A DNA stretch of 64,000 nucleotides from Streptomyces actinomycinicus (lineage in GTDB: Bacteria > Actinomycetota > Actinomycetes > Streptomycetales > Streptomycetaceae), in contig NZ_JAERRK010000003.1 in NCBI RefSeq assembly GCF_016741775.1, positions 434,001 to 498,000 of the forward strand, in the 5' to 3' direction. The first letter of the stretch is position 1; each line of letters begins with the position of its first letter. The translations under genes were made by a program, and so were the position numbers. This document shows, piece after piece, positions 2,425 through 64,000 of this stretch. The notes under the pieces are model-generated. The model was not told the origin of the DNA. It made no database searches and saw only the letters and a list, made by a program, of their open reading frames with translations.

Positions 2425-5979
<3,555 letters not shown>

Positions 5980-46271: not shown

Positions 46272-46508
46272 GCCGGTCAGCCTAGAAAGTACCCGGCCCC
46301 GGTGCACTGGGGCTAACCCCCCGGTCAGAGCCCTGGACCCCGCGAGCGGCGCAGGAGCCGCGCACCGCCGTGGCCTTCCCCCGAGACGGTCCTCTCCTGA
46401 GGCCGGCGGCCTGAGGTAACGCACAGGTATCCAGACGGAACAGAAACGGACCAAGCCTGCTCGAAGATCGCTCGTGTCTGAGAAGATCTTGCGGATTGAG
46501 GGGGAATC

Positions 46509-46661
46509 ATGCGCAGTAAGCTGGCAGGCCTGATCGGTATTGTCGCTCTGGCCATTGCTTTCGGTACCGGAGTGGCGGTGCACAACCTCGGGGCCGACGG
46601 GCCCGGGAAGGGTGTGCACACGCTGGCCACCAATGAAGGGCCGGGTTTCAGCCACGTATAA
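46509..46661 (+). CDS. 50-residue exported or membrane peptide next to the SARP gene
   Basis: Starts at an ATG with GAGGGGG seven bases upstream. An N-terminal basic-hydrophobic segment (KLAGLIGIVALAIAFGTGVAV) could be a signal peptide or anchor; a 25-residue tail ending GFSHV follows. It is convergent with the SARP regulator, whose stop is only nine bases beyond its own. Codon use is less GC-biased than the neighbours. Function unknown; possibilities are a secreted signal or a small regulator, neither supported beyond location. Confidence 0.65.
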   Translation: MRSKLAGLIGIVALAIAFGTGVAVHNLGADGPGKGVHTLATNEGPGFSHV

Positions 46662-49600: not shown

Positions 49601-49771
49601 GGCCGTCTCGATGAGGCGCTCGATGGGCACCGTCCGCCCGGACTCCAGGAGCAGTGACGTCAGAATGCGGTCCTGAAGCGGTCCCCCGAGCTTGATCCGA
49701 TCGCCGTCGGCCAGGCATTCCAGAGAACCAAGAACGTTGAACCGCAGCCCGCGATTTTCTGTACCCGTCAT
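46670..49771 (-). CDS. SARP-family regulator with NB-ARC and TPR domains (AfsR-like)
   Basis: 1033 residues from MTGTENRGLRFNVLGSLE, with GGGGGGTG upstream. N-terminal OmpR-type winged HTH (about 10-95: AWGESSPDTAKQQVRKAIADLRRR), bacterial transcriptional activator domain (about 100-250: VDLHLFSHHVQAA...AEALHEYAAVRELLAEELG), NB-ARC NTPase (about 300-580; Walker A DGMGGAGKTTL, Walker B RRLLLVLDN), then TPR repeats to the C-terminus. Likely pathway-specific activator of the adjacent cluster. Triple heptad repeats before the AmCP gene fit SARP binding. No TTA codon was seen in the gene. It ends with a Cys-rich, low-similarity tail (VCCTLGSFCC). Confidence 0.92.
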   Translation of the reverse strand: MTGTENRGLRFNVLGSLECLADGDRIKLGGPLQDRILTSLLLESGRTVPIERLIETAWGESSPDTAKQQVRKAIADLRRRIPDGPALIVTEDAGYRVSVQPLQVDLHLFSHHVQAAASGRSAGQLSAAAGELRKALALWRGPVLNGTGGPVLDAASTVLEERRLAAVEELFALRLQLGEDSDIVSEIREFADAYPLREGLRAQLMLALYRAGRQAEALHEYAAVRELLAEELGISPCPDLTNLFEKILRASPELDAPAPAPAAPALRPSEGARAAENAPCTLPYELPDFTGRHQELGYLLDRGQPGDGVRIIAVDGMGGAGKTTLIVRAAHRLAASYPDGQLYLDLRGFTPGEHPLAPEEATRILLRALGTPDNAIPDDTESRLAMWGAASASRRLLLVLDNAADAAQIRPLLPVTSECLVLVASRGRLLDLDGAHWISLGTLAPQESAALLARTLGEDRVAADPEAARSLATLCGHLPLALRIATARLHNRPRWTLQYFVDRLREEDALLTELRSTERSVATTIQLSYEALGEEHRRAFMLLGVHPGPNFDPHAAAALTDMTPRNAEQMLEDLLDSQLLQQHEAGRYSFHDLIRSFARSLWDDSVRHQKDTAVGRLLNHYLGATNEACRILFPGLRQWASAPTGNATGLPAFGDAQTARRWYDRESRALQATVRLAQRHDFHRLASYLARNTVLHLHAQGAIRDFRELAEVAVTAARRAADTQALCLSLANLASAHQILGEFRSATEAAEEGLRVSRSHGDSVSEAAFLDLLGWAHIVLGSLSEGYDLLLRGIGLHREFGNLRRESIALCNLSTLHLWQGRTTEAIAAAERAVMLCREVGEQEHEVAALNDLVIAHLDAGDDASAQRYLDRALALGEDSAMPRNRAVSLALRAVVHQRNGQSDEVMTYIDQALALVSPLGTVTWQCEVENIAGLVHRHGGNHDKALELHRSAHQRALGIGYRMGMAHGLHGMAKAEQSLGKQEAAREHLRNAEELFTAMNIPRAILNSPDRASVCCTLGSFCCSTQTPDIGR

Positions 49772-50046: not shown

Positions 50047-50241
50047 ATGATCATGACACTTGCGGCAACTGTCGCCAGCTGTCTCGTATGCGACACCGAA
50101 TTCGAGGTGCGCGAGGACTGGGAGAAGGGCGAGATCACCGAGTGCGGGGCCTGCGGCCAGGAGCACGAGGTCGTCGAGAAGTCCGCTGCCGGCGTACGCC
50201 TGGACCTCGCCCCCGAGGTGGAAGAGGACTGGGGCGAGTGA
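50047..50241 (+). CDS. LysW-like amino-group carrier protein (AmCP)
   Basis: 64 residues, acidic. Two Cys pairs (CLVC at 12-15, CGAC at 33-36) form the zinc knuckle of LysW, and the C-terminus ends in EDWGE, whose final Glu gamma-carboxylate is the attachment site for the amino group of the substrate. In lysine/ornithine biosynthesis of Thermus and archaea, and in streptomycete azinomycin/vazabitide-type pathways, this carrier protects the alpha-amino group of glutamate or aminoadipate. AAAGGAG precedes ATG 50047; ATG 50053 is an alternative. It leads a run of overlapping genes. Confidence 0.95.
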   Translation: MIMTLAATVASCLVCDTEFEVREDWEKGEITECGACGQEHEVVEKSAAGVRLDLAPEVEEDWGE

Positions 50242-51107
50242 CGGCCTCCGACCAGGTCCTGCTCTCGGTCACGATGCTGCGCCCCGAGGAGAAGCTGCTC
50301 CTCGGCGCACTGCGTGACGAGGGTCTGACGGCGCGACCGCTGCTCATGGAGGATCTGGCCGAGATCGTGGCGGGCCACTCCGGCCCGCCCGCTCTCGCCC
50401 TGATCAGGAACCTCTCCCACCGGGACGCGATCAACGTCTCCCGTCGCCTGGAACACGCCGGAGTCCCCACCCTCAACCGTGCGGCGACGATCGAGACCTG
50501 CAACGACAAGGGACTGCAGGCGCTGCTCTTCGCGCGGCACGGCATCCCCCACCCCACCACCCGGCACGCCTTCAGCTTCGACCAGGTCCGCAGGACCGTC
50601 GCCGACCTGGGCATGCCCGCCGTGGTCAAGCCGGTCAGCGGCTCCTGGGGACGCGGGGTCAGCAAGATGACCCACGCCGACTGCGTGGAGGCGTGGGCCG
50701 CGGGCCGCGAGTCCGCCGACGTGACGGGCAAGCAGTTCCCCGTCGTCGTGCAGGAGTACATCGACAAGCCCGGTCACGATCTGCGGGTCGTGGTCGTCGG
50801 CCGGACCCCGGTGGTGGCCATCCAGCGGGTGTCGGACGACTGGCGCACCAACACCCACCTGGGTGCCGAGGTGCGGCGCGTCGAGGTCTCCACGGAGATG
50901 GAGAAGCTCTGCGGGCAGGTCGTCGACGTCCTCGGCCCCGGCTTCTACGGGGTGGACCTGGTCGAGGACCGGTCCACGGGCGAGCTGCTCGTGCTCGAAG
51001 TGAACGCCAACCCGGAATTCGCCCGTTCCTCCGCCCAGCACGGAGTGAACGTGGCCGGCCACCTCGCCGCCTACGTCGCGGAGACCCTCACGGCCTCGGC
51101 CGTGTGA
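50238..51107 (+). CDS. LysX-like ATP-grasp ligase loading the AmCP
   Basis: 289 residues. Expected to ligate the alpha-amino group of glutamate to the C-terminal Glu of the AmCP using ATP. N-terminal LLSVTMLRPEEKLLLGALRDEG resembles LysX/RimK N-domains; ATP-grasp features include VVKPVSGSWGRGVSKM (P-loop-like), QEYIDKPGHDLRVVVVG, and the metal site LLVLEVNANPEF. GTG overlaps the AmCP stop by four bases, so carrier and ligase are translationally coupled. Substrate choice (Glu versus aminoadipate) is not readable with certainty. Confidence 0.92.
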   Translation: MTASDQVLLSVTMLRPEEKLLLGALRDEGLTARPLLMEDLAEIVAGHSGPPALALIRNLSHRDAINVSRRLEHAGVPTLNRAATIETCNDKGLQALLFARHGIPHPTTRHAFSFDQVRRTVADLGMPAVVKPVSGSWGRGVSKMTHADCVEAWAAGRESADVTGKQFPVVVQEYIDKPGHDLRVVVVGRTPVVAIQRVSDDWRTNTHLGAEVRRVEVSTEMEKLCGQVVDVLGPGFYGVDLVEDRSTGELLVLEVNANPEFARSSAQHGVNVAGHLAAYVAETLTASAV

Positions 51108-51121
51108 CACGGAGAAGATCC

Positions 51122-51751
51122 ATGGAACTGTTCGACACCGCAACGGTGCTCGCCCGCGTCCTCACCACGGGCGTGGTCATGAGCATCGAGAAGAGCGACC
51201 GGGAACTGCCCGGCCTCGAACGACTGCTCACCAAGCAGACCGGACGCGCGCGGGCCGTCCTCGTCAACAGCCGTACCGCCGCCGTCCACGCGGCGCTCGC
51301 CGGCCAGGGCATCGGGCACGGCGACACCATCGCCCTGTCCGAGCCGGACGCGGCGACCGGCCGCTTCCTCGACTGGCTCGGCGTCGGCGTCGAGGAGCAG
51401 GGCCGGGCCGCGTACGACTACGTGTCCCTGGACTCCGCCAACGCCGACCGGCTGGGCGAGCTGACCCGGACCGCCACCGCCCCCGCCCTCGTCGTGGACC
51501 TCACCGGACTCGGCTTCGGGCCGGCCGCCGCCGTCCTCACCGACGACGACGCCGTCTGGGCCCGTGCCGAGCGACTGAAGATCTTCGGCGCCTACGACCT
51601 GCGCACCATGTGGACGCAGGAGGAGGCCGACGCCTCCCTGGTGCCCGGGGTCCAGTTCAACTACCGGCTCAGCCCCCTCGTGGCCGCCTGCGTGCGGATG
51701 GCCCTGACCCAGGCGGCACGTCCCGCCACTCCCACCGGAGCGCGCTCATGA
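51122..51751 (+). CDS. degenerate DegT/AHBA-synthase-like protein lacking PLP lysine
   Basis: 209 residues, about half of a normal DegT aminotransferase. RAVLVNSRTAAVHAALAGQGIGHGDTIAL parallels the N-terminal HAV-NSGTAALHLAL block; TDDDAVWARAERLKIFGAYD and GVQFNYRLSPLVAACVRMALTQ parallel the block after the PLP lysine and the NYRM block. The lysine-bearing segment reads LTGLGFGP with no Lys, and the C-terminal small domain is absent. It overlaps and directly precedes a full-length DegT gene, so it may be a non-catalytic partner subunit. Start has GGAGAAG upstream. Confidence 0.75.
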   Translation: MELFDTATVLARVLTTGVVMSIEKSDRELPGLERLLTKQTGRARAVLVNSRTAAVHAALAGQGIGHGDTIALSEPDAATGRFLDWLGVGVEEQGRAAYDYVSLDSANADRLGELTRTATAPALVVDLTGLGFGPAAAVLTDDDAVWARAERLKIFGAYDLRTMWTQEEADASLVPGVQFNYRLSPLVAACVRMALTQAARPATPTGARS

Positions 51752-53067
51752 TCACCGATTTCCCGGCAACCCCGCTGCCCCTGCCCGACCCCGCCGAACT
51801 CGACTCCGAACTCGCCGCGCTCGGCGGCGGGGCCATGATTCCCAAGGCGGCGCGTCGCACGCTCTTCCCGGTCATCACCAAGGAAGACGTCTTCAACCTG
51901 ATGCTCGCCCAGCGTCAGGCGCCCGAGAAGGTCGTCGCCGACTTCGCCGAGGCCTACCGCTCCTACGTCGGTGCGGCGCACGCGCTGCCCACCGCCAGCG
52001 GCACCTCCAGCCTGCACATGGCCCTCGTCGGCGCCGGTGTGCGGCCCGGTGACGAGGTCATCGTGCCGGCGTTCACCTTCATCGCGACCGCGCAGGCCGT
52101 CGTCGCCGCGCACGCGATCCCCGTGTTCGTCGACATCGACCCGGTCACGTACTGCATGGACCCCCAGGCCGCGGCCGCCGCGATCACCGATCGCACCCGC
52201 GCGCTGATGCCCGTGCACGTGCACGGCCTGCCCGCCGACGTGTCCGCCCTGCGCGCCCTCGCCGACCGGCACGGCATCGCCCTCGTCGAGGACGCCTCGC
52301 ACGCCCATTCCGCGAAGGTCGGCGAGCAGGTGGCCGGCTCCCTCGGGGACGCCGCCGGCCAGAGCCTGATGGCCGACAAGAACTTCCCCCTCGGCGGCGA
52401 GGGCGGCATCGCGTTCTTCGCCACCGAGGAGAGCTACGACCGGGCCCGCGCCTACCTGGAGCGGCACGCCATCGACTACGGCATGTCCTGGGTCGCGGCG
52501 GCCTTCGGCGCCAGCCAGCTCAAGCGGCTGCCGTACTACGACGAGATCCGGGCCCGCAATGCCGCGCTGCTCGGCGAGGCCCTGCACGGCACCGGCCTGT
52601 TCACCCCGCCGCACGTCCCCGACGGGCACGTCCACGCGTACAACATGTACCGCATCACCCTGCACCCCGAGGCCGTCGGCCTGGGCGACATCCCGGTGTT
52701 CGCGGTCAAGGAAGCCGTGCACGAGCTGCTGGTCGCCGAGGGCGTCCCGGCCCGCGAGTGGCAGAACACCCCGATCCCGTGCCACCTGCCCTTCCAGCAC
52801 CGGGACGGCTTCGGGAACGGCTACCCGTTCACCCTCAACCCCGGTGCCGTGCGCGACCACCGGCCCGAGGACTTCCCGGTCACCCTCGGCATGCTCGACA
52901 GCACCCTCGTCCTCTGCCGCGAGCTGCGCTCCCCGGTGGAGTACGAGCGCATCCTGCGCTACGCCGACGCCTTCCGGAAGGTCGCCCGCCGGCCGGACGC
53001 CATCCGCAAGCTCGTCGAGACCCGCGACTACCGCCGTCCCTACGACAAGGCGGCCCGCCTTGGCTGA
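51748..53067 (+). CDS. DegT/DnrJ/EryC1-family PLP aminotransferase
   Basis: 439 residues. ALPTASGTSSLHMALVGAGVRPGDEVIVPAFTFIATAQAV is the classical N-terminal block; the PLP Lys is at 211 in MADKNFPLGGEGG; and the Asp binding the pyridine ring is in VEDASHAHSA. In azinomycin-like AmCP pathways an aminotransferase of this type aminates the ketone formed after two-carbon extension; the same role (C6 amination) is inferred here. The ATG overlaps the stop of the degenerate DegT-like gene (ATGA), suggesting stoichiometric expression of the pair. Confidence 0.9.
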   Translation: MITDFPATPLPLPDPAELDSELAALGGGAMIPKAARRTLFPVITKEDVFNLMLAQRQAPEKVVADFAEAYRSYVGAAHALPTASGTSSLHMALVGAGVRPGDEVIVPAFTFIATAQAVVAAHAIPVFVDIDPVTYCMDPQAAAAAITDRTRALMPVHVHGLPADVSALRALADRHGIALVEDASHAHSAKVGEQVAGSLGDAAGQSLMADKNFPLGGEGGIAFFATEESYDRARAYLERHAIDYGMSWVAAAFGASQLKRLPYYDEIRARNAALLGEALHGTGLFTPPHVPDGHVHAYNMYRITLHPEAVGLGDIPVFAVKEAVHELLVAEGVPAREWQNTPIPCHLPFQHRDGFGNGYPFTLNPGAVRDHRPEDFPVTLGMLDSTLVLCRELRSPVEYERILRYADAFRKVARRPDAIRKLVETRDYRRPYDKAARLG

Positions 53068-54127
53068 CGCAGTGAACGAGAAGATACGCGTCGCCGTCCT
53101 CGGAGCCAGCGGCTACACCGGCGGCGAGGTGATCCGGCTGCTCCTGGAGCACCCGCAGGTGGAACTCGCGTTCCTCTCGGCGGAGCGCGCCGCGGGCACC
53201 GCCGTCGGCAACAGCCACCCCTGGCTGCGCAACCACCCCAAGGCGTCCGGCCTCACGTTCCGGCCGCTGGCCGAACTCGCCGACGCCGACACCGTCGACG
53301 TCGCCTTCGGCTGCCTGCCCACCGGAGCCCTGCCCGAGCAGCTGCCGCTGGTCGCCGACCGGGCCAAGCGCGTGCTGAACCTGGGCGGCGACTTCCGGCT
53401 GCGCGACGAGAAGGAGGTCAGCCGGCACTACCCGGGGACCGCGGCCCACCCGCCGCTGGACGAGTTCGCCTACTACGTCCCGGAGCTGAGCCCCAACATC
53501 CCCGACAGCCGGTTCGTCAGCCTGCCCGGGTGCATGGCCGTCACCACGATCTACGCCCTGTACCCGCTGTTCGCCGGCGACGGCCCGCTGGTCGCCGACC
53601 GGGTGGTCGTCGACGCCAAGACCGGCTCCACCGGCGGCGGCCGCGGCAGCGACGAGCAGCCGGCCGAGCGCAGCGGCAACTTCCGGGTGCACAAGCTGCA
53701 CGGCCACCGGCACGCGCCGGAGGTCCAGCAGGCCATCGCCGACTTCACGGGCGCCGCCGTCGACCTGCGGTTCTCCACGCACAGCCTGGACGTGTCGCGC
53801 GGCATCATGGTGACCGCCTACTCCGAGCTGCGGCCCGGGGTCACCGCCCTCGACGTCAAGCGCGCCTACGCCAAGGCGTACGTCGGCAAGCCCTTCGTAC
53901 GGGTCCGCCCGGCGCCCAAGGCGCCGCAGGACTTCCCCATGCTCAAGGCCGTCACCGGCTCCAACGTCGCCGAGGTGGCGGTGTCCGTCCGCGACGGCCA
54001 GTGCGTCACGGTGGCCGCCCTCGACAACCTGATCAAGGGTGCGGCGGGCCAGGCCATCCAGGCCATGAACCTCATCCACGGCTTCGACGAGGCGGCCGGG
54101 CTGCCGATCACGGCGGTGTCCCCATGA
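53060..54127 (+). CDS. LysY/ArgC-like N-acyl-gamma-glutamyl-phosphate reductase for AmCP substrate
   Basis: 355 residues from a TTG (53060) that overlaps the previous stop and follows CAAGGCGG; a GTG at 53072 is the alternative. NADP Rossmann motif AVLGASGYTGGEVIRLL, catalytic Cys158 in SLPGCMAVTTIYALYPL, HGHRHAPEV with the active-site His, and C-terminal AALDNLIKGAAGQAIQAMNL. It should reduce the carrier-bound acyl phosphate to a semialdehyde. Insert GGGRGSDEQP resembles LysY more than plain ArgC. The host's ArgC would be elsewhere. Confidence 0.93.
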   Translation: MADAVNEKIRVAVLGASGYTGGEVIRLLLEHPQVELAFLSAERAAGTAVGNSHPWLRNHPKASGLTFRPLAELADADTVDVAFGCLPTGALPEQLPLVADRAKRVLNLGGDFRLRDEKEVSRHYPGTAAHPPLDEFAYYVPELSPNIPDSRFVSLPGCMAVTTIYALYPLFAGDGPLVADRVVVDAKTGSTGGGRGSDEQPAERSGNFRVHKLHGHRHAPEVQQAIADFTGAAVDLRFSTHSLDVSRGIMVTAYSELRPGVTALDVKRAYAKAYVGKPFVRVRPAPKAPQDFPMLKAVTGSNVAEVAVSVRDGQCVTVAALDNLIKGAAGQAIQAMNLIHGFDEAAGLPITAVSP

Positions 54128-55980
54128 GCCGACCGCTGTACGTCATCAAGGTCGGCAGCGCGACGCTCGACCGCGAGGCCATCCACAAGGAGATCGCAGA
54201 CGTCGTCGCCCGCGGCGCCCGGGTGCTCCTGGTGGCGGGCGGGGCCACCGGCATCGAACGCCACTACGCGGCGATCGACCGCCCGGTCCCCACGCTCCGG
54301 CTGGCCAACGGCGACGTGGTGCGCTACTGCCCTCCCGAGGAGATGGACCACCTCGTCGACGCCTACGAGCGGGTCACCCTGCCCGCCGTGGAACACGGCC
54401 TGCGCGCCCAGGGCCTGCGGACGTTCACGGCCGTCGCCGCGCGCAGCGGCCTGGTCGTCGGCCGGGCCAACCGCCCGCTGAAGGCGCTGTCGGCCGAAGG
54501 CCGCCCCGTCGTGGTACGCGACCACCGGGCGGGCGTGCCCGCCGACGCCGACACCGAGGCGCTGAACGCCCTGCTCGACGCGTACGACGTGGTCTGCCTG
54601 TCCCCGCCGGTCGCGGACCGGGACGGCGGCGCCCCGCTGAACGTGGACGCCGACGTACTGGCCGCGGTCCTCGCGGTCGCCCTGGACGCCGACCACCTCC
54701 GGCTGGTCACCGGCACCGCGGGACTGCTGACCGATCCGGCCGACCCGGACTCGACGCTGCGCGACGCCTACCCGGGCGACGGTGCGCGCTACGCCGGCGG
54801 ACGCATGCGCCAGAAGGTGCGCGCGGCCGAGATCGCCCTGGCGGGCAGCGGCGCCGACGTGGCCATCACCGGCCCGCACACCATGAGCGAGCCCTCGGGA
54901 TGGACCCGGTTCTGGCGCACCAGGGGCCCCGCCGAGGACCTCGACCTGCTGACCCGCGCCGTCTCGGTGTCCTCGGTCTCCGGCGACGAGGCGGAACTCG
55001 CCTCCTGCCTCGCCGAATGGTGCCGGGAACGGGGCATCGAGGCCCGCATCGACCCGGCCGGCAACCTCGTGGCCTCCCGCGGCACCGGTTCCCGCCGGCT
55101 GCTGCTCCTGGGCCACCTCGACACGGTCCCGCACCGCTGGCCCGTCGAGTGGCGCGGAGGCGAGCTGTGGGGACGCGGCAGCGTGGACGCCAAGGGCAGC
55201 CTCGCCGCCTTCCTCGAGGTGCTGGCGGACGCGGCGGTACCGGAGGACGGCCAACTGGTCGTGGTCGGCGCGGTCGAGGAGGAGATCTCCTCCTCGAAGG
55301 GCGCGTTCCACGTACGGGACAACTACCCGGCCGACGCCGTCGTCATCGGCGAACCCAGCGGCTCGGGGAAGCTGACCCTCGGCTACTTCGGTCTCTTCAA
55401 GCTCGCGGTGACCGCCTCGGTGCCCACCGGCCACTCGGCCGGCATGGACGCGGTGTCGGCCCCGGACCGGCTGATCCGGGTCCTCGGCGAGATCCGCGCG
55501 TCGGTGCTCGAGCAGGCGCCCGAGGCGCTCAGCGCGGTCATCGACATCCGGTGCGAGCGCGGCCGGGAGCGCGACCGGGCGCACGGGACCCTCAACTTCC
55601 GGGTGCCGCCGGGCGCCGACCTGGAGGCGCTGCGCACCGCCGCGCTCCGGCACGCCGGTGACGGTGTCGGCATCGAGGCGCTGCGCGCCACCCCGGGCCA
55701 CCAGGGCGGCCGTTCGGGCCCGCTGGCCACGGCCTTCGTCCGCGCCTTCGCCGGGGCCGGGATCAGGCCCCGCTTCGTGGTGAAGAAGGGGACGTCGGAC
55801 ATGAACACCCTGGCGACCACCTGGCACGACGTGCCGATGGTGGCGTACGGGCCGGGCGACTCCGCCCTCGACCACACCGACGAGGAGCGCATCGGGGGCG
55901 AGGAGTACCGCGCCGCCCGCGCGCTGCTCGCCGACGCGGTGAACCGCTGGTTCGCCCTCGCGGAAGGGAGCCGCCGATGA
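54124..55980 (+). CDS. fused LysZ-like kinase and LysK-like M20 peptidase
   Basis: 618 residues in one uninterrupted frame. Residues about 1-255 are an amino-acid kinase of LysZ/ArgB type (YVIKVGSATLDREAI; VLLVAGGATGIE; GGRMRQKVRAAEIAL), phosphorylating the side-chain carboxylate on the AmCP. Residues about 265-618 are a zinc M20 peptidase like LysK that releases the finished amino acid: LLLGHLDTVP, GRGSVDAKGS, VVGAVEEEIS, VIGEPSG, and terminal ALDHTDEERI carry the metal and catalytic residues. In lysine pathways these are separate proteins. An ATG at 54883 (MSEPSGW) could allow internal initiation of the peptidase alone. ATGA overlaps at both ends. Confidence 0.88.
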   Translation: MSRPLYVIKVGSATLDREAIHKEIADVVARGARVLLVAGGATGIERHYAAIDRPVPTLRLANGDVVRYCPPEEMDHLVDAYERVTLPAVEHGLRAQGLRTFTAVAARSGLVVGRANRPLKALSAEGRPVVVRDHRAGVPADADTEALNALLDAYDVVCLSPPVADRDGGAPLNVDADVLAAVLAVALDADHLRLVTGTAGLLTDPADPDSTLRDAYPGDGARYAGGRMRQKVRAAEIALAGSGADVAITGPHTMSEPSGWTRFWRTRGPAEDLDLLTRAVSVSSVSGDEAELASCLAEWCRERGIEARIDPAGNLVASRGTGSRRLLLLGHLDTVPHRWPVEWRGGELWGRGSVDAKGSLAAFLEVLADAAVPEDGQLVVVGAVEEEISSSKGAFHVRDNYPADAVVIGEPSGSGKLTLGYFGLFKLAVTASVPTGHSAGMDAVSAPDRLIRVLGEIRASVLEQAPEALSAVIDIRCERGRERDRAHGTLNFRVPPGADLEALRTAALRHAGDGVGIEALRATPGHQGGRSGPLATAFVRAFAGAGIRPRFVVKKGTSDMNTLATTWHDVPMVAYGPGDSALDHTDEERIGGEEYRAARALLADAVNRWFALAEGSRR

Positions 55981-56795
55981 CCGCCGTGCTCGAAGGTCCC
56001 ACGAGCGCCGAGGCACCGGCGTCCCCGCTGGCCGAGCGGGCCGTGCAGGCCCGCCGGCTGGTGGTCGACATGGCGGCGTCGGAACGCGGCTGCCACCTGG
56101 GCGGCAGCCTGTCGGTGCTCGACATCCTGATCGCCGCGCTGGACCGGGCCTCCGCCGGGGACGGCACGGAGGTCGTGCTGAGCAAGGGGCACGCCGCAGC
56201 GGGCCTGTACGCCGCGCTGTACGTCAGCGGCATGCTGCCGCAGAACCCCGCGCCGCTGTACGGCCGGGCGGGCCAGCCCTACACCGGTCACCCGGGCCCC
56301 AAGGTGCCCGGGGTCCGGTTCCCCACCGGCAGCCTCGGGCACGGCGTCCCGTACGCGGCGGGCTGGGCCCTGTCCCGCCGGATCGGCGGGCAGAGCGGTC
56401 TGGGCATCGCGGTCGCGGGCGACGGCGAACTCCAGGAAGGGCTGGTCTGGGAGACCTGCCAGGTGGCTGCGGCGCAGGAACTGGGCAACTTCGTGCTCGT
56501 CGTGGACCGCAACGGCGGCCAGAACGACGGGCTCGTCGCGGACATCTCGCCGCTGCCCGCTCTCACCGAGCGGTTCGCCGCCTTCGGGTTCGAGGTCGCG
56601 GAGACCGACGGGCACGATCTGGCCGCGCTCACCGGGCTGTTCGCCAGGGACCGGTCGGCCGCACGCCGTCCGCTCGCCGTCGTCGCCCACACCGTCAAGG
56701 GCAAGGGGGTGCCGGCCGTGGAAGGCAAGGCGGGTTCCCACTACGTGACCATCGACGCCACGCGCGCCGCGAAGTGGAAGCGAGCGATCCGATGA
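55977..56795 (+). CDS. transketolase N-terminal subunit
   Basis: 272 residues, the TPP-binding half. VLSKGHAAAGLYAAL, TGSLGHGVPYAAGWAL, and the TPP/Mg motif GDGELQEGLVWE (Asp149) leading to VDRNGGQNDG. Split two-subunit transketolases occur in AmCP pathways for azinomycin, ficellomycin and vazabitide, where they add a two-carbon ketol unit to carrier-bound glutamate semialdehyde. The same role is inferred. Overlaps the kinase-peptidase stop and the C-subunit start. Confidence 0.92.
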   Translation: MTAVLEGPTSAEAPASPLAERAVQARRLVVDMAASERGCHLGGSLSVLDILIAALDRASAGDGTEVVLSKGHAAAGLYAALYVSGMLPQNPAPLYGRAGQPYTGHPGPKVPGVRFPTGSLGHGVPYAAGWALSRRIGGQSGLGIAVAGDGELQEGLVWETCQVAAAQELGNFVLVVDRNGGQNDGLVADISPLPALTERFAAFGFEVAETDGHDLAALTGLFARDRSAARRPLAVVAHTVKGKGVPAVEGKAGSHYVTIDATRAAKWKRAIR

Positions 56796-57745
56796 CTCTC
56801 TCCGGCCGTGACGCCTACCGCGACGAGCTGACCTCCCTCGCCGCGGAGGACCCCACCCTCGTCTGCCTCGAGGCGGACCTGGGCGGCAAGAACCACCCGT
56901 TCCAGACCGCGCACCCGGACCGGTTCTTCAACGTCGGCATCGCCGAGGGCGCCATGGTCGACATGGCGGCCGGACTGGCCGCCGGCGGCTACAAGCCCTT
57001 CGTCAGCACCTTCGCCCCCTTCGCGGCGCTGCGGGCCGCGGAGAGCCTGAAGCTGACACTGGGCTACCTCAACGCCGGGGTCACCGTCGTGGCTCCGTAC
57101 GCGGGGGTGTCCGGCGCCTGGTTCGGCACCACCCACCACTGCCTGGAGGACCTCGCGGTGCTCCGCAGCGTCCCCGGCGTGACCATCGCGGCCCCCTACG
57201 GCGAGGCCGAGATGCGTGCCGTGGTCCGCAACGCGGCACGCAGCGGCAGGCCGCACTACATCCGCACCGGCCGGAACGCCACCTACGAGTCGCTCCCGCT
57301 GCCGGACGGCGAACTGCCCCTGGTGAACTGGGAGTACCAGGCGGACCCCGAGGACGTCTGCCTGGTCTCGGTGGGCGAGGAGGGCACCCGCCTGGCGCTG
57401 GCCGCCCGCGCCGCCACCGGCGCCTCGCACGCGCACCTGGTCCACCTGGACCACGAGCACCTCTCCGCGGCGGCCGCGGAACTGGCGGGGCGGCACACCC
57501 GGTTCGTCGTCGTCGAGGAGCACCGCAGCCAGGGCGGAGTGGCCGAGGCGCTCGCGCTGCTGCTGCCCCGGTGCGAGGTCACGGGCGTGGGGGCCGGCCA
57601 GGAATGGCCCTCCACCGGTGGCGACCACCAGGAGGTCATGGCGGCGCTCGGCCTCGATCTGCCCGCCGTGCTCGCGGCCGTGGCCAGGGCGCGCGACGGC
57701 CGGCCCACGGCCGCGGCCGGGCACGCCCACGCCTGCGTCCGCTGA
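56792..57745 (+). CDS. transketolase C-terminal subunit
   Basis: 317 residues comprising the Pyr domain and C-terminal domain. FFNVGIAEGAMVDMAAGLAAGG carries the TPP-activating Glu52, followed by FVSTFAPFAALRAAESLK and the substrate-phosphate region. The C-terminal domain is at about 190-300 (CLVSVGEEGTRLALAARAA; VVVEEHRSQGGVAEALA). ATG overlaps the stop of the N-subunit, as expected for a heterodimer pair. A 54-base gap then separates it from the next gene, so the AmCP module proper ends here. Confidence 0.92.
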   Translation: MTLSGRDAYRDELTSLAAEDPTLVCLEADLGGKNHPFQTAHPDRFFNVGIAEGAMVDMAAGLAAGGYKPFVSTFAPFAALRAAESLKLTLGYLNAGVTVVAPYAGVSGAWFGTTHHCLEDLAVLRSVPGVTIAAPYGEAEMRAVVRNAARSGRPHYIRTGRNATYESLPLPDGELPLVNWEYQADPEDVCLVSVGEEGTRLALAARAATGASHAHLVHLDHEHLSAAAAELAGRHTRFVVVEEHRSQGGVAEALALLLPRCEVTGVGAGQEWPSTGGDHQEVMAALGLDLPAVLAAVARARDGRPTAAAGHAHACVR

Positions 57746-57799
57746 GACCACCGTCCCGGGCACCTTCTCATCCAACTCCAGGAAGACGGAGCGCTGAAC

Positions 57800-59053
57800 A
57801 TGCACATCCTGATGATCGAATGCAACCCCAACGGCATCGCCGGCATCGCCAATGCCCTGGACCTGGGCCACGACGTCACGCTGGTGTCGGTGGACCCCGA
57901 CTTCTACCTCGCCGCCTCGCCGCTGGCCGAGGCGGCCTACGCCCACCCGAACTGCCAGGTGGTCAAGAGCGCCCAGGCCTTCTTCATCGACGAGCTGACC
58001 GCCCTGGCCCGCAAGCTGCACTCCGAGAAGCCGATCCACGGCGTGACCACCTACAGCGAGTACCACACCGTGCACACGGCGGCGGTCGCGGAGGCACTGG
58101 GGCTGCCGGGCATGAGCGTGGACGGCGCCCGCAACGCCCGCCACAAGCACCTGACCCGGCTCACCCTGGACGGCAAGGGCGTCCGCCAGCCCCGCTTCGT
58201 CCACGTGGCCGACCCGAAGGACGTCGAGGCGGCCGTGCGCGAGATCGGCTTCCCCTGCGTGGTCAAGCCGTCCGACGGCACGGCCAGCCTGCACGTCCTG
58301 CACCTCAAGGACGAGGAGGACCTGCGCGCCTACCTCGCGGAACTCGCCGACGTGGCCGACTACGGCCGCGGCGTGGTCCGCGTGCCGGACCTGCTGATCG
58401 AGGAGTTCGTCACCGGCGAGCTGATCTCGGTGGAGTCCTGCGTCCTCGGCAAGGGCGAGGTGGTCAACCTCGGCCTCACCGACCGCCCGCTGAGCGGCTT
58501 CCCGTACTTCATCGAGATGGGCGCCACCTACTTCAGCGGACACCCGCTCCAGGACGAGCTGTTCGACCTGACCACGCGCCTGCTGAACGAACTGGGCGTG
58601 GACTTCGGCTTCATCCACACCGAGTTCCTCCTCGGCCCCGACGGCCCGGTGCTGTGCGAGGTCAACGGCCGGCTGGTCGGCGGCATCGTGCCGAGCCTGA
58701 TGGAGCTGTCCTCCGGCGTCGACCCGTACCTGGAGGTCATCCGGCAGGCGCTCGGCGAGCGCCCCGAGCTGCCCCGCCCCGGCGAGACCACCGCCGGCGG
58801 CCGCTGGTTCGGCGCCCCGATCGGCGGGACCGTCGAGTCCATCGGCTTCGACGGCCTGAAGGAGCTGCCCGGCTTCCACAGCGCCCTCGCCTACAAGAAG
58901 CCCGGCACCGAGGTGAACCGGCTCTCCAAGAGCAACTTCGACTGGATCGGGCACACCATCTTCACCGGCGCCGACCGCACCGAGGTCAACAAGCGCTGCG
59001 TGGAGGCCCTGGACCGGATCGACCTGCGGATGAAGGTCGAGGTGGCCCGGTGA
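57800..59053 (+). CDS. ATP-grasp carboxylate-amine ligase
   Basis: 417 residues. N-terminal pre-ATP-grasp domain (MHILMIECNPNGIAGIANALDLGHDVTLV), central ATP-grasp fold with GFPCVVKPSDGTAS and IEEFVTGELISVESCV, and the metal-binding LCEVNGRLVGG. Resembles BacD/carnosine-synthase-like ligases that join amino acids. A role in coupling the released AmCP product to a second carboxylate is inferred. GGAAGACGG precedes the ATG. It is distinct from the LysX-like ligase, being a second ATP-grasp enzyme in the cluster. Confidence 0.88.
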   Translation: MHILMIECNPNGIAGIANALDLGHDVTLVSVDPDFYLAASPLAEAAYAHPNCQVVKSAQAFFIDELTALARKLHSEKPIHGVTTYSEYHTVHTAAVAEALGLPGMSVDGARNARHKHLTRLTLDGKGVRQPRFVHVADPKDVEAAVREIGFPCVVKPSDGTASLHVLHLKDEEDLRAYLAELADVADYGRGVVRVPDLLIEEFVTGELISVESCVLGKGEVVNLGLTDRPLSGFPYFIEMGATYFSGHPLQDELFDLTTRLLNELGVDFGFIHTEFLLGPDGPVLCEVNGRLVGGIVPSLMELSSGVDPYLEVIRQALGERPELPRPGETTAGGRWFGAPIGGTVESIGFDGLKELPGFHSALAYKKPGTEVNRLSKSNFDWIGHTIFTGADRTEVNKRCVEALDRIDLRMKVEVAR

Positions 59054-60363
59054 CCGCGGATCCGCGGCGTCAGCACCTGCACGGGGTGGCGATCCCCTCC
59101 CTCGACGCCGGGACCGTGTTCGACGTCACCGTCGAGGACGGCGTCTTCTCCCGCATCGAGCCCTCGGGCGGCCGCAGCGGCGGCGAGACGGAGCTGTGGC
59201 CCGGCTACACCGAGACCCACGCCCACGTCTCACTGCCCGCCAACTGGGACGACACCGCCGACGACCCGCGGATCGTCGCGCTGCAGTACGTCTACCACGG
59301 CGTCACCCATGTGGTGGACATGTTCGGCTTCCCGCTGGTGGCCGATGCCTGGGCGGCCGGCCGCGAGGCCTCCACGGTGCCGTACCCCGAGATCGTCCAC
59401 TGCGGCTACGCGGTCACCGCGATGACGAACGCGGCCGGCCTGACCGGCCACGGAGTCGAGTTCCCGGCCCCGGTGCACATGATCGCCACCGAGACCGACC
59501 TGGAACACGCGATCCGTTCCAACGTCGAGCGCGGCGGCACCTTCCTCAAGGTGATGTTCACCGACGGCACCGAACAGCCGGACAGCCCGGTGAAGTTCTC
59601 CCGGCTGTCCCGCCGGGTGCTCGAGTTCTCCGCCCGGATCGCCGCCGAGCGCGGCATCACCGCGGTCATCGACTGCAACACCCTCCAGGAGACCCGCTGG
59701 GCGTACGAGTGCGGCTTCCGCCTCTTCGCCCACAGCGTGCGCGACCGGACGCTCGACGCGGCCGACTGGAAGGAGTTCGAGGGTGCCCGCTTCGTCTCCA
59801 CACTGGCCGGCCTGCGCCCCATGATCATGACGGGGGAGGAGTTCCGGGCCGAGTACGGGCGCGAGGGCTTCGCCGAGACCCAGGACATCCGCAACCTGGA
59901 GTTCGCCCAGGGCATCGAGAAGCCGTACGGCATCGAGTTCGGCTGCCAGGAGACCCGCACGGCGGCGCTGGCCGACATGCGCCGCAACGCGCTGGCCACC
60001 CTGCGCGAGGGCAAGCTGCTGATCGGAACCGACTCGGGCAACACGGGCGCTTACCACGGCTACTCGTTCCTGAGCGAACTCGACCTGCTGCGCGGCGACG
60101 ACGCCTCGCTGGAGGAGCGGCTGCGCCACCAGGCGACGATCGGGGGCCGCCGCTACTTCGACGAACTGAGCGGCGACACCCGGGACGCCCATCCGCTGAG
60201 CGCCGGCGAGACCGCCACCTACAACCTGCACGCCCCGGGCCGGCCGCTGTCCGCCCTTCCGCTGCAGACCGTCGTCCGGGGCGTGCCGATCGACCGGCAG
60301 GCCGTCGCGCGCACCATCGCCGGGCTGCGTGCCGCGGGGACGGACCCGGAGGGGGAACTTTGA
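59050..60363 (+). CDS. metal-dependent amidohydrolase (imidazolonepropionase/prolidase-like)
   Basis: 437 residues of the amidohydrolase superfamily. N-terminal beta-sandwich, then the metal motif ETHAHV (His57, His59), a conserved Lys in TFLKVMFTDG, VIDCN at strand 5, LFAHSV, and the catalytic Asp in LLIGTDSGN. Similar enzymes act on cyclic amides or as peptidases and decarboxylases. In the cluster it may cyclise or open a lactam, or trim a protecting group; not resolved. GTG overlaps the ATP-grasp stop. Confidence 0.85.
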   Translation: MTADPRRQHLHGVAIPSLDAGTVFDVTVEDGVFSRIEPSGGRSGGETELWPGYTETHAHVSLPANWDDTADDPRIVALQYVYHGVTHVVDMFGFPLVADAWAAGREASTVPYPEIVHCGYAVTAMTNAAGLTGHGVEFPAPVHMIATETDLEHAIRSNVERGGTFLKVMFTDGTEQPDSPVKFSRLSRRVLEFSARIAAERGITAVIDCNTLQETRWAYECGFRLFAHSVRDRTLDAADWKEFEGARFVSTLAGLRPMIMTGEEFRAEYGREGFAETQDIRNLEFAQGIEKPYGIEFGCQETRTAALADMRRNALATLREGKLLIGTDSGNTGAYHGYSFLSELDLLRGDDASLEERLRHQATIGGRRYFDELSGDTRDAHPLSAGETATYNLHAPGRPLSALPLQTVVRGVPIDRQAVARTIAGLRAAGTDPEGEL

Positions 60364-61619
60364 TCAGGGAGCGCAAGCGCGCACTCGTCGGCGTGGTCGG
60401 CGGCATCCTCCTCGCCAACACGGGCAGTTACATCTGGTTCCCCGTGCTCGTCGCCACCCTGGGCGGGTCCGACAGCGGGTTCTGGGCGGGCGTCGTCATG
60501 TGTATGACGTACGTCGGCCGGCTGCTGGCCACCTTCTGCTACGAGGGGGTCGCGGCACGCGCCGGGGTCCGCGGCGGCGTGTTCCTCGGCACCGCTCTGG
60601 AGGCCGTGGCGCTCGGGCTCATGGGCTTCACCGACGGCGTGCTCGCCTACAGCGTGCTCGCGTTCTTCATCGGCTTCGGCTCGGGAACCTCCTTCCCGGG
60701 GCTGAAGAACGTCCTGGTCTCCTTCCCGGAGGACGAACGGCCCAAGGCGTTCTCGGCGTTCCAGATGGCGGGCCAGGTCGGTCTCTTCGGCGGCGCACTG
60801 CTGGGCGCCGTACTGGCGGACGTGGAGCTGCGGACCCTCTTCACCGTGGTGTTCGTGTTCTTCACCGGCTTCTGCCTGATCACCTCGGCGCTGATCCCCC
60901 GAGGCGGTTTTGGCGGCGCGCCGGACGCGGCGGACGGCCGTGTGCCGCTGTTCAGCCTGACGGCGTTCAAGGGCATCGAGGTGCGCGGAGCCACCCGCTA
61001 CTTCCTGCTGTCCGCGGCGTTCTGGTTCCTGTCCCTGGGCTTCGTGGTCGGCATCCCGCTGCACATGGACGAGTACGTCCCGGGGTGGGCGCCGTCCGCG
61101 CCGTTCTGGATCACCGGCCTCAGCATCCTGGTGCTCCAGTACCCGCTGTTCAAGCTGTTCAACAAGCGGTTCAGCCCGGGCGCGGTCATGGCCGTCGGCC
61201 TGGCCGGGATGACCGTCGCGTTCCTCGCCTTCGGGGCCGGGCGCACCGCCCCCTGGGTGGTGGTCGGCTGTCTGACGGTGGTGCTCGGCGAGATCCTCTT
61301 CGTGCCGTCGTTCGACCTCTGGATCGCCCGCAGGGTCCCCGAGGACCGGCTGGCCCGGGCCATGGGCGCGATGCACTTCTTCCGCAGCGCCGGGAACATG
61401 GCCGGCTCCCTGGCCGCGGGAATCCTGTTCGACCTGTCGCGCTCCCTCGGTGTGGCGGGCGGCAACTGGTACGTCGCGGCCCTGCTGGCGGCGGGCTGCG
61501 CACTCGCCTGCCTGAGCGGCCGGCACTCCGGCACGGCCACCGGGACCGACGCCGCCGGGGTCGACGTCACCGAGAACGATGTCACGCAGAGTGAAGAAGC
61601 AGTGAGGGAAAATGTCTGA
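60360..61619 (+). CDS. MFS transporter, probable product exporter
   Basis: 419 residues from a TTG (60360) overlapping the amidohydrolase stop, with GGAGGGG just upstream. About 12 hydrophobic helices in two halves, with a basic loop after helix 2 and conserved GTSFPGLKNVLVSFPEDERPKAFSAFQMAG. The C-terminal tail is acidic and Thr-rich. Likely exports the metabolite and may give self-resistance. Confidence 0.88.
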   Translation: MIRERKRALVGVVGGILLANTGSYIWFPVLVATLGGSDSGFWAGVVMCMTYVGRLLATFCYEGVAARAGVRGGVFLGTALEAVALGLMGFTDGVLAYSVLAFFIGFGSGTSFPGLKNVLVSFPEDERPKAFSAFQMAGQVGLFGGALLGAVLADVELRTLFTVVFVFFTGFCLITSALIPRGGFGGAPDAADGRVPLFSLTAFKGIEVRGATRYFLLSAAFWFLSLGFVVGIPLHMDEYVPGWAPSAPFWITGLSILVLQYPLFKLFNKRFSPGAVMAVGLAGMTVAFLAFGAGRTAPWVVVGCLTVVLGEILFVPSFDLWIARRVPEDRLARAMGAMHFFRSAGNMAGSLAAGILFDLSRSLGVAGGNWYVAALLAAGCALACLSGRHSGTATGTDAAGVDVTENDVTQSEEAVRENV

Positions 61620-62580
61620 CATTTGCGTCATCGGGGGCACCCGGTTCTTCGGCAAGGTGCTGGTGCAACGGCTCCTGGGCGACGGTCACCGGGTCACCCT
61701 GGTCAACCGCGGGCAGACCCCCGACCCGTTCGGTGACGCGGTGCGGCGGTTGCGCGCCGACGTCCACGTCCCCGGAGAGCTGGCCGCCGCGGTCGCGGGG
61801 GAACGGTTCGACGCGGTGATCCACCAGATGTGCTACACGCCGAACGCCGCCGTGGAGGCCTGCGAGGCGTTCGGCGAGCGGGCCGGGAAGATCATCATGA
61901 CCAGCACCATCGAGGTGTACAACAAGGACACCTTCCGCTGGCGGTTCCCGGCCCCGGAGTTCAGCACCCGCGCCCGCGAGGAGGAACTCGACCCGGCGGA
62001 CTACGACTTCGACACCACCCTGCCCTGGTACGCGGACGGCTACCTGGACGCCCACTACGGCGAGGGGAAGCGCCAGGCCGAGGCCGCGCTGACCCGCTGC
62101 GCGAAGGTGCCGGTGCTGCTGGCCCGGGTCGCCCACGTCCTGGCCGCGCAGGGCGACTTCACCGGCCGGCTCCAGTTCCACCTCGACCGTGTCACGGCCG
62201 GACAGCCCGTCGTCGCCCACGCGGCGCCCGGCCGGACGTCGCTGGTACAGGCCGAGGAGGCCGCCGGCTTCCTCGCCTGGGCGGCCCAGTCCGACGCCAC
62301 CGGAGCGGTCAACGTCGCCTCTCCGGACACCGCAGACGTCTACGACGTCTGCGCCGCCGTGGAGAGCGCCACCGGGTTCACGGCCGACGTGATCGAGAAG
62401 GAAGACCCCGCCGGCGACCCCGGCCTGTCCCCGTTCTCCTGCCCGGCCGACTTCGGCATGGCGAACGACCGGGCGGCTGCCCTGGGTTACCGCTTCACCC
62501 CGATCGCCCAGTGGCTTCCCGCGGTCGCCCGTGCCGCCGCGGCCGGCCCCACCGACACCCCCCACCCCAAGGAGCAGTGA
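61612..62580 (+). CDS. NAD-dependent epimerase/dehydratase family protein (extended SDR)
   Basis: 322 residues. NAD motif [17 protein letters not shown] at the N-terminus, STIEVYNKD, and the catalytic Tyr-x3-Lys as YGEGK near residue 149-153. C-terminal substrate lobe with [19 protein letters not shown]. The GGTxFFG variant is typical of the NAD-epimerase-like/isoflavone-reductase-type subgroup often found in secondary-metabolite clusters. Substrate unknown. Overlaps the MFS gene and abuts the ABM gene. Confidence 0.88.
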
Positions 62581-62876
62581 TGTTCGACCTCATCGTCATC
62601 GTCCGGGTCCCCGAGTCCGACGACATCGCGCCGGTGGCCGACGCCCTGGCCCGGATGCGACCCCTGTGTCTCACCGAGGACGGCTGCGTCAGCTGGGAGG
62701 CGTACCAGTCGCAGGACGACCCGGGCCGCTTCGTCCTCGTCGAGCGCTGGGCGAGCCGCGCCCACTGGGAGGCGCACGACTCCGGCGACGCCATCCAGAA
62801 GATCTACCTGCGGGAGATCATGCCGCGCATCGAGCGCGAGGTGCACCCGAGCAGCCCGGTGAGCAGCGCGCGGTAG
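62580..62876 (+). CDS. ABM-fold (antibiotic biosynthesis monooxygenase-like) protein
   Basis: 98 residues of the dimeric alpha-beta ferredoxin-like ABM fold: [58 protein letters not shown]. Members include cofactor-free monooxygenases and polyketide cyclases acting late in biosynthesis. The ATG shares bases with the previous stop (TGATG). Confidence 0.88.
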
Positions 62877-62995
62877 CCGGCGAGCGGCGCGCAGCGGCAG
62901 ACGACAGGGCGCCGGGACGGGGGCCGCATACGGCGACGGCCCCCACCCCGTCGCGGGAACCACCGATTCGGCACGGACACTGGGGTGCATCAACG

Positions 62996-64000
62996 ATGGA
63001 AAATGCTGGTCACGGCAGGCGTGATCTCCCTTCGCACGCGGTCGCGGTCGTCGGGATCGGCTGCCGGTTCCCGCAGGCCGACGGACCGGGCGCGTTCTGG
63101 CGGCTGCTGCGCGGCGGCGGTGAGGCGATCACCGGCCGGCAGGGCGGCCGGGGCCCGGCGCGCGGCGGGTTCCTCGACCGGGTCGACGCCTTCGACCCCG
63201 ACTTCTTCGGCATCTCACAGCGTGAAGCCACGGCCATGGACCCGCAGCAGCGGCTGGCCCTCGAACTGGCCTGGGAGGCCCTCGAGGACGCCAGGACCCT
63301 GCCGGGCGGCCTCGCCGGCAGCCGGACGGGTGTGTTCCTCGGTGCGATCGCCGACGACTTCGCGACGCTGCTGCACCGCCTCGGTCCCGACGCGGTGACC
63401 GGGCACACGCTGACCGGACTGCAGCGCGGTGTGATCGCCAACCGGATCTCCTACGCGCTGGGCCTGAACGGGCCGAGTCTCGTGGTGGACTGCGGGCAGT
63501 CGTCTTCGCTGGCCGCCGTGCACCTGGCGTGCGCGAGCCTGCGGTCCGGCGAGTCCGACCTGGCCCTGGCCGGCGGTGTGAACCTGATCCTCGCCCCGGA
63601 GAGCACCCTGGCGCTGGAGCGGGCCGGGACCCTGTCGGCCGCGGGGCGCTGCTTCACCTTCGACGCCCGGGCCGACGGTTACGTCCGGGGCGAGGGCGGC
63701 GGGGTCGTCGTACTCAAACTCCTGGAAGCCGCCGTACGGGACGGCGACCGCATCCATGCCGTGATCCGCGGCAGTGCCCTGAACAACGACGGCGCGACCG
63801 CGACGCTGCCGACACCCGGCCGTGCGTCGCAGGAGCGGGTGCTTCTCGCCGCCTGTGCCGACGCGGGCGTCGAGCCGGGCGAGGTCCGGTACGTCGAGCT
63901 GCACGGGTCGGGGACCCGGGTCGGGGACCCGGTCGAGGCCGCCGCGCTCGGGGCGACGCTGGGCGCGGCCCGCACGGCGGAGGCACCGCTCCTGGTCGGT
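62996..64000 (+). CDS. type I polyketide synthase, KSQ loading domain (3' end outside window)
   Basis: 335 residues are visible and the frame is still open at the right edge. A short N-terminus leads straight into a ketosynthase: [46 protein letters not shown], and the active-site region [15 protein letters not shown]. Gln168 occupies the position of the catalytic Cys (normally TACSSS), which marks a decarboxylating KSQ loading domain. The first catalytic His is present in [14 protein letters not shown]. The protein should therefore prime chain synthesis by decarboxylating malonyl- or methylmalonyl-ACP. ATG at 62996, weak ribosome site. Confidence 0.9.

Follow-up and report, generated by a model that had tools for sequence, protein, structure and literature searches.

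The AmCP operon and its tail genes

We analyzed a 64,000-nucleotide stretch of the Streptomyces actinomycinicus genome (the window; bases 434001-498000 of contig 30 in a host genome of 8.79 Mb), in which a biosynthetic operon built around an amino-group carrier protein (AmCP) lies next to the start of a type I polyketide synthase (PKS). All coordinates are in window numbering; DNA beyond the window was read up to coordinate 137000, and genes were called with a codon-usage script. The cluster is real, intact and composite: it holds 17 genes over about 35 kb (46670 to 81711), with its right-hand end near 81.7 kb, outside the window, beyond which the called proteins resemble, by eye, a regulator and, further on, histidine-utilization genes. 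Thirteen genes of the cluster (50047-62876) are all on the plus strand with gaps between neighbors of -8 to +54 bp, and 119 bp separate the last of them, encoding an ABM-domain protein, from the start of the first PKS gene. Divergent from this operon, on the minus strand, is a gene for a SARP-type regulator (Streptomyces antibiotic regulatory protein) with BTAD, NB-ARC and TPR domains (46670..49771; PF03704 and PF00931). The two halves of the cluster, the AmCP operon and a trio of two PKS genes and a monooxygenase-like gene, occur apart in other strains and are probably combined here into one new natural-product pathway.

The operon opens with a LysW-like carrier gene (50047..50241, with a possible start at 50053) whose product scores above the cut-off of PF21344 (E 9.4e-11); its tail, APEVEEDWGE, is present in 23/23 AmCPs that we collected. 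Behind it lie genes for a LysX-like ATP-grasp ligase (50238..51107; PF08443 and PF22626; PDB 3vpd and 1uc8), two DegT-like proteins, a LysY/ArgC-like reductase (53072..54127; PF22698 and PF01118, with TIGR01850 above cut-off), a kinase-peptidase, and the N- and C-terminal subunits of a transketolase (55977..56795, PF00456; 56792..57745, PF02779 and PF02780). Because the NCBIfam LysW models and the LysX model (TIGR02144) match below their cut-offs, we regard this AmCP set as divergent. Pfam and NCBIfam assign to this one cluster a LysX-like ligase, a kinase, a reductase, a peptidase, an aminotransferase and a transketolase, a complete and tightly ordered enzyme set for the route to 2,6-diamino-5,7-dihydroxyheptanoic acid (DADH). 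The arrangement is not due to chance, since all 18 named loci with a kinase-peptidase fusion, which we gathered (L labels) in addition to a sample of 392 congeneric genomes (G labels), hold further AmCP-pathway genes nearby.

The initial annotation of this DNA had listed a carrier ending EDWGE, LysX-like, DegT and LysY-like proteins, a split transketolase and a KSQ-primed PKS. Pfam and motif reading recover each of these on the plus strand, and at the level of predicted enzyme families a DADH-type AmCP set with a two-subunit transketolase does stand beside a KSQ-primed reducing PKS. Two entries needed revision. Both a LysZ-like kinase and a LysK-like peptidase are present, but separate genes for them are ruled out, as PF00696 (residues 6-249) and PF01546 (residues 327-607) fall in one frame encoding a fused protein of 618 aa (54124..55980). 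Likewise, the DegT-family aminotransferase (51748..53067; PF01041) is there but is not alone, being preceded by a short DegT-like subunit (51122..51751; partial PF01041). The pair matches chain A (E 1.2e-160) and chain C (E 7.1e-49), respectively, of one solved complex, PDB 8y96, so there is precedent for such a two-subunit enzyme; the open literature yielded nothing relevant on a two-subunit aminotransferase.

Five plus-strand genes that had gone unlisted complete the operon: an L-amino-acid ligase-type ATP-grasp protein (57800..59053; PF13535 and LAL_C2, PF18603), an amidohydrolase-like protein outside known profile families (59050..60363), an MFS transporter (60360..61619; PF07690), an NAD-dependent epimerase/dehydratase-like protein (61612..62580; PF01370) and the ABM-domain protein (62580..62876; PF03992). 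Judging by its match to BL00235 (PDB 3vot, E 9.1e-21), the ligase appears to belong among the L-amino-acid ligases. The amidohydrolase-like protein, whose HAH and GTD motifs are invariant in 11/11 sequences, has no Pfam family at E<=10, no PHROGs or PDB sequence match, and a sole NCBIfam match, to dihydroorotase, at E 0.29; hhalign found no relationship to four hydrolase-like proteins encoded on the same contig. AlphaFold gave a poor model of the protein (mean pLDDT 52.5), and Foldseek ranks 1-45 for this low-confidence model are amidohydrolase-superfamily structures, prolidase-type matches among them, at TM scores of 0.28-0.36, a hint that the protein resembles prolidases or dipeptidases. In the operon's core, the ligase would build a DADH dipeptide and the hydrolase would trim it.

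These genes also bear on what the AmCP half makes. It could produce a stereoisomer, or an oxidized or cyclized C7 amino acid, instead of DADH, by way of the aminotransferase pair and the epimerase-like and ABM proteins, with the rest of the scheme unchanged. The 8y96-type two-subunit aminotransferase and the addition of epimerase-like and ABM genes in a subset of clusters would suit such a product, but the enzyme set fits the DADH route described for vazabitide A and azinomycin in the available portions of two reports (PMC9303977, PMC9570651), and we consider a departure from DADH quite unlikely. Pfam scans of the cluster proteins (PKS2 to residue 2360 of 2481) contained neither a sulfotransferase nor an APS kinase, in keeping with the earlier view that aziridine-forming genes are absent; nothing recognizable as a hydrazine-forming enzyme was seen in these scans, with no reference sequence compared.

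Domain organization of the PKS-NRPS trio

The trio runs from PKS1 (62996-72892, plus strand, with 62996..64000 inside the window) through PKS2 (72918-80363) to a flavin monooxygenase/acyl-CoA dehydrogenase-like gene (80581-81711), the latter two outside the window; the nearest NCBIfam models to the last gene, for HpaH- and HsaA-type oxygenases, match far below cut-off. We aligned six homologous trios, from the window, Streptomyces lydicus, Streptomyces sp. RB17 and the sampled genomes G137, G236 and G035. By Pfam and motif reading, PKS1 has the domain order KSQ-AT-ACP-KS-AT-DH-ER-KR-ACP, and PKS2, a hybrid with a nonribosomal peptide synthetase (NRPS), the order KS-AT-ACP-Cy-A-PCP-TE. The loading ketosynthase (KS) of PKS1, which is accompanied by an AT and an ACP, carries Gln for the active-site Cys: the motif VDCGQSSS occurs in the open reading frame from 62996, and GQSSS in 6/6 homologs. 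The YASH and FASH motifs suggest methylmalonyl use, if the usual rule for such motifs applies.

The KS of PKS2 keeps the cysteine of TACSSS and has SSTGT for HGTGT (His to Ser) in 6/6, the KSQ and KS1 domains retaining that histidine in 6/6; the short AT that follows has GHG for GHS (catalytic Ser to Gly), again in 6/6. According to the available portion of a paper on algal PKSs (PMC4661987), a KS in which the His of HGTGT is changed to Ser should not elongate. Because the KS lacks its His and the AT its Ser in all six homologs, module 2, in PKS2, most probably transfers the chain to the Cy domain without extending it. PKS2 offers a compact cis-AT module that seemingly neither elongates nor loads, yet is conserved.

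Beyond this module, the Cy motif DALxxD and the A-domain pocket are conserved in all six homologs. The pocket, as read by eye, is DLYNMSLIW in each, and we provisionally take it to be cysteine-type. The A domain matches PDB 7ly7 and 7emy, that is, the Cy-A thiazoline modules of BmdB (bacillamide) and PchE (dihydroaeruginoic acid); unlike in these systems, Cy-A of PKS2 is fed by an apparently non-elongating KS-AT-ACP module. The adjacency of both kinds of gene invites the idea, raised in the initial annotation, that DADH enters through a PKS/NRPS module, whether taken up by the NRPS part or incorporated during chain assembly by the PKS. This idea finds no support at the only A domain, where an apparently cysteine-type pocket and a preceding Cy domain led us to reject DADH as the substrate; use of DADH within the assembly line is thus extremely improbable, and DADH would be joined off-line. 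The open literature held nothing relevant on a KSQ/thiazoline product.

The homologs also differ in detail. In PKS1 of RB17 (assembled from L021 and L108), the DH histidine is replaced (DRTLSG for DHALSG), and this homolog may leave a hydroxyl group. The linkers of the window's PKSs are swollen by Pro/Ala- and Gly/Ala-rich repeats: as called, and with some of the relatives' starts miscalled short, PKS1 measures 3298 aa against 2991-3065 in five relatives and PKS2 2481 aa against 2238-2369.

Association of the two halves across genomes

Relatives of the kinase-peptidase fusion are found in 22/392 genomes and at the 18 named loci (the matches in G135 and G243 being split within one open frame). 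The amidohydrolase-like gene occurs in 12/392 genomes, each time with the fusion at 3.07-3.68 kb, and an epimerase-like gene of at least 67% identity in seven, adjoining an AmCP operon in 7/7; in the remaining 119 genomes that passed the search threshold, epimerase-like relatives reach at most 47% identity. We read the neighborhoods in eight of the 12 amidohydrolase-type genomes; the remaining four (G108, G248, G254 and G355) gave no epimerase-like match in the 392-genome search. The AmCP relatives form a nested series: G129 has the core alone; G228 and G363 add epimerase and ABM genes; in G290, G238 and G076 a further amino-acid ligase, the second, follows ABM (to which it is fused, as called, in G238); and the window and G137 have core, epimerase, ABM and the PKS trio, which occupies the slot of that second ligase.

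Two of the 18 named loci are composites, S. lydicus (L013) and RB17 (L021). Eight (L014-L018, L020, L029 and also L027) have the core, and the stretch examined contains no match to the epimerase-like protein or to PKS1. In L019 and L028, the latter a short contig, a ligase lies upstream, and the stretch examined contains no amidohydrolase-like gene. Six more loci (L022-L026 and L030) are more divergent. Among the first seven of the core-only loci, the AmCP-ligase-amidohydrolase-MFS operon without epimerase or PKS includes those of S. caniscabiei, S. acidiscabies and S. europaeiscabiei; we know of no product of such an operon. L023-L026 and L030, from Herbidospora species and S. spiroverticillatus, have a different AmCP layout, in which the kinase-peptidase fusion lies on the strand opposite to that of an NRPS-like gene, the transketolase halves, LysY and LysX.

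Four genomes, those of the window, G137, S. lydicus ISP-5461 and Streptomyces sp. RB17, share the identical 17 genes in identical order. Their flanks (2-20 kb a side, with several sides of 2-4 kb) have no DNA match of more than 150 bp to one another, save for 216-253 bp next to the regulator's stop codon, and from this shared order amid largely unrelated flanks the composite seems to be kept as a unit. In the window this piece spans about 220 bp (46427-46646), and it is 77-80% conserved in all four composites. The SARP-type regulator itself is 88-90% identical in the three other composites, whereas the AmCP-only relative G363 has a LuxR-type gene in that place, as, by eye, other AmCP-only relatives do. 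Counted by its last gene, the trio occurs in 4/392 genomes (the window, G137, G035 and G236), two of which also have an amidohydrolase-type AmCP operon, against 0.12 expected (hypergeometric P 0.005, uncorrected for relatedness).

Several observations weigh against reading the composite as one pathway. The whole trio is found without AmCP genes in G035 and G236 (50 kb read), neither of which is among the 22 genomes with the kinase-peptidase fusion, and the AmCP core is found without this PKS in many genomes; a PKS as a fixed part of every such AmCP operon is thereby ruled out. G236 has two large NRPS genes after its trio. In the PKS1 tree, the stand-alone trio of G236 groups with those of G137 and S. 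lydicus (97/97). The composites therefore do not form a single clade, and the two halves were joined or separated on more than one occasion; no branch of the PKS2 tree is strongly supported. The 119-bp gap between ABM and PKS1 holds a possible hairpin, although a terminator scan found no site there, only 3/27 pairs of its consensus fold show changes on both sides (4 sequences), and its fold z-scores are 0.02, -0.38 and 0.33 in three sequences and -2.52 in S. lydicus. A SARP-like regulator 33% identical over 929 aa is also encoded close to the AmCP locus in Saccharothrix sp. S26 (L022, 14954-17755), where no PKS was found in the stretch examined, so a SARP alone does not mark composites. Finally, none of the genes stands out as encoding the enzyme that would join DADH to a thiazoline, and the AT and A-domain specificities are presumed from motifs.

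The occurrence of each half without the other, the gap with its possible hairpin, and the PKS1 tree would all be expected if two independent pathways merely sat side by side, the AmCP operon making a small DADH peptide and the three-gene PKS-NRPS a free thiazoline or thiazole acid, with a shared place and perhaps shared regulation. Such independence is possible but, in our judgment, doubtful, given that the 17-gene order is kept in four genomes despite largely unrelated flanks, that all four composites have the SARP-type regulator where G363 has a LuxR-type gene, and that the trio has neither a transporter nor a regulator of its own in the window. A joined product, as the initial annotation had supposed in linking the C7 diamino acid to a polyketide, is likely, even though each half also exists without the other. 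We regard a single composite pathway that conjugates DADH to a thiazoline acid as somewhat more probable than the alternatives combined.

Candidate pathway and related systems

In such a composite pathway, homology suggests that the LysX-like ligase would load Glu onto the AmCP, the kinase domain and reductase would convert it to a semialdehyde, the two-subunit transketolase would add C2, the two-subunit DegT enzyme would aminate, and the peptidase domain would release a DADH-type C7 diamino dihydroxy acid. Tailoring of this acid could then fall to the amino-acid ligase, the prolidase-like amidohydrolase and the epimerase-like and ABM proteins, with export by the MFS transporter. On the PKS side, the domains predict that KSQ/AT would supply a propionyl starter, that one fully reducing module would extend it to a 2-methylpentanoyl chain, and that the KS without His and the AT without Ser would pass the chain on unextended. 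Cy-A(Cys)-PCP-TE would form and release a 2-alkyl-thiazoline-4-carboxylate, possibly oxidized by the monooxygenase-like protein, and in a last step the thiazoline acid may be amide-bonded to DADH or to a DADH dipeptide by the TE or the ligase.

The ligase gene bears on this step. The window's enzyme is 89% identical to that of RB17 but only 72% to those of G137 and S. lydicus, against 85-97% for the other genes from AmCP to ABM, and in the ligase tree the G137 and S. lydicus enzymes group with a Kitasatospora ligase (100/99). This divergence and placement suggest that the amino acid used by the ligase is variable, and that a different step, perhaps catalyzed by the TE, may attach the PKS acid.

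Azinomycin, which is built on a DADH-type amino acid, has a PKS-derived part, so the combination of AmCP and PKS is not new as such. The available portion of one azinomycin report describes a kinase, a reductase, the transketolase AziC5/C6 and an aminotransferase leading to DADH, the same sequence of enzymes as here, with sulfation preceding the aziridine (PMC9570651); by contrast, Pfam shows no sulfotransferase in the window cluster, whose PKS is short, KSQ-primed and equipped with a Cys module. For vazabitide A and s56-p1, where Vzb22 is the AmCP, the portion available likewise describes an AmCP-bound route to DADH (PMC9303977). Unlike those clusters, as described, the window's shows no sulfotransferase or APS kinase by Pfam and has a ligase-amidohydrolase-MFS-epimerase-ABM tail and the PKS-NRPS trio. 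The iso-maleimycin cluster of Streptomyces sp. QL37 shares a LysW-type carrier with a RimK-type ligase, both needed for the product, but is beta-lactone-like by antiSMASH, and the part of its report available makes no mention of a transketolase/DegT set or a KSQ PKS (PMC12022981).

These four compounds, of which vazabitide A, s56-p1 and azinomycin are DADH-derived, are the few AmCP natural products in the literature searched, insofar as its sources were available. That open literature, a search that excluded MIBiG, held no characterized match to the cluster, and the novelty of its product is provisional. More tentatively, and with slightly less than even confidence, we propose that a stand-alone AmCP operon has acquired an autonomous KSQ/KS0/Cy-A PKS-NRPS cassette at the second-ligase slot, that the product represents a new class of thiazoline-acylated C7 diamino acids, and that the AmCP core serves as an evolutionary platform on which one acylating module is exchanged for another. 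If the composite reading is true, a DADH-type building block would enter a PKS-NRPS product without an aziridine. Strains with the AmCP core alone, with the second ligase, with the PKS trio, or with the trio alone form a natural comparison set, in which both the joining step and the part played by the amidohydrolase-like protein can be tested directly.

The same genome holds a second AmCP cluster, on contig 96 (91-14510; L109 and L120), with an APS kinase, a sulfotransferase, an SDR, an AmCP, LysX, LysY, the transketolase halves, an AMP ligase and a fused LysZK 57% identical to the window's. This is an aziridine-type set, and the strain's two DADH-like pathways might have intermediates in common.

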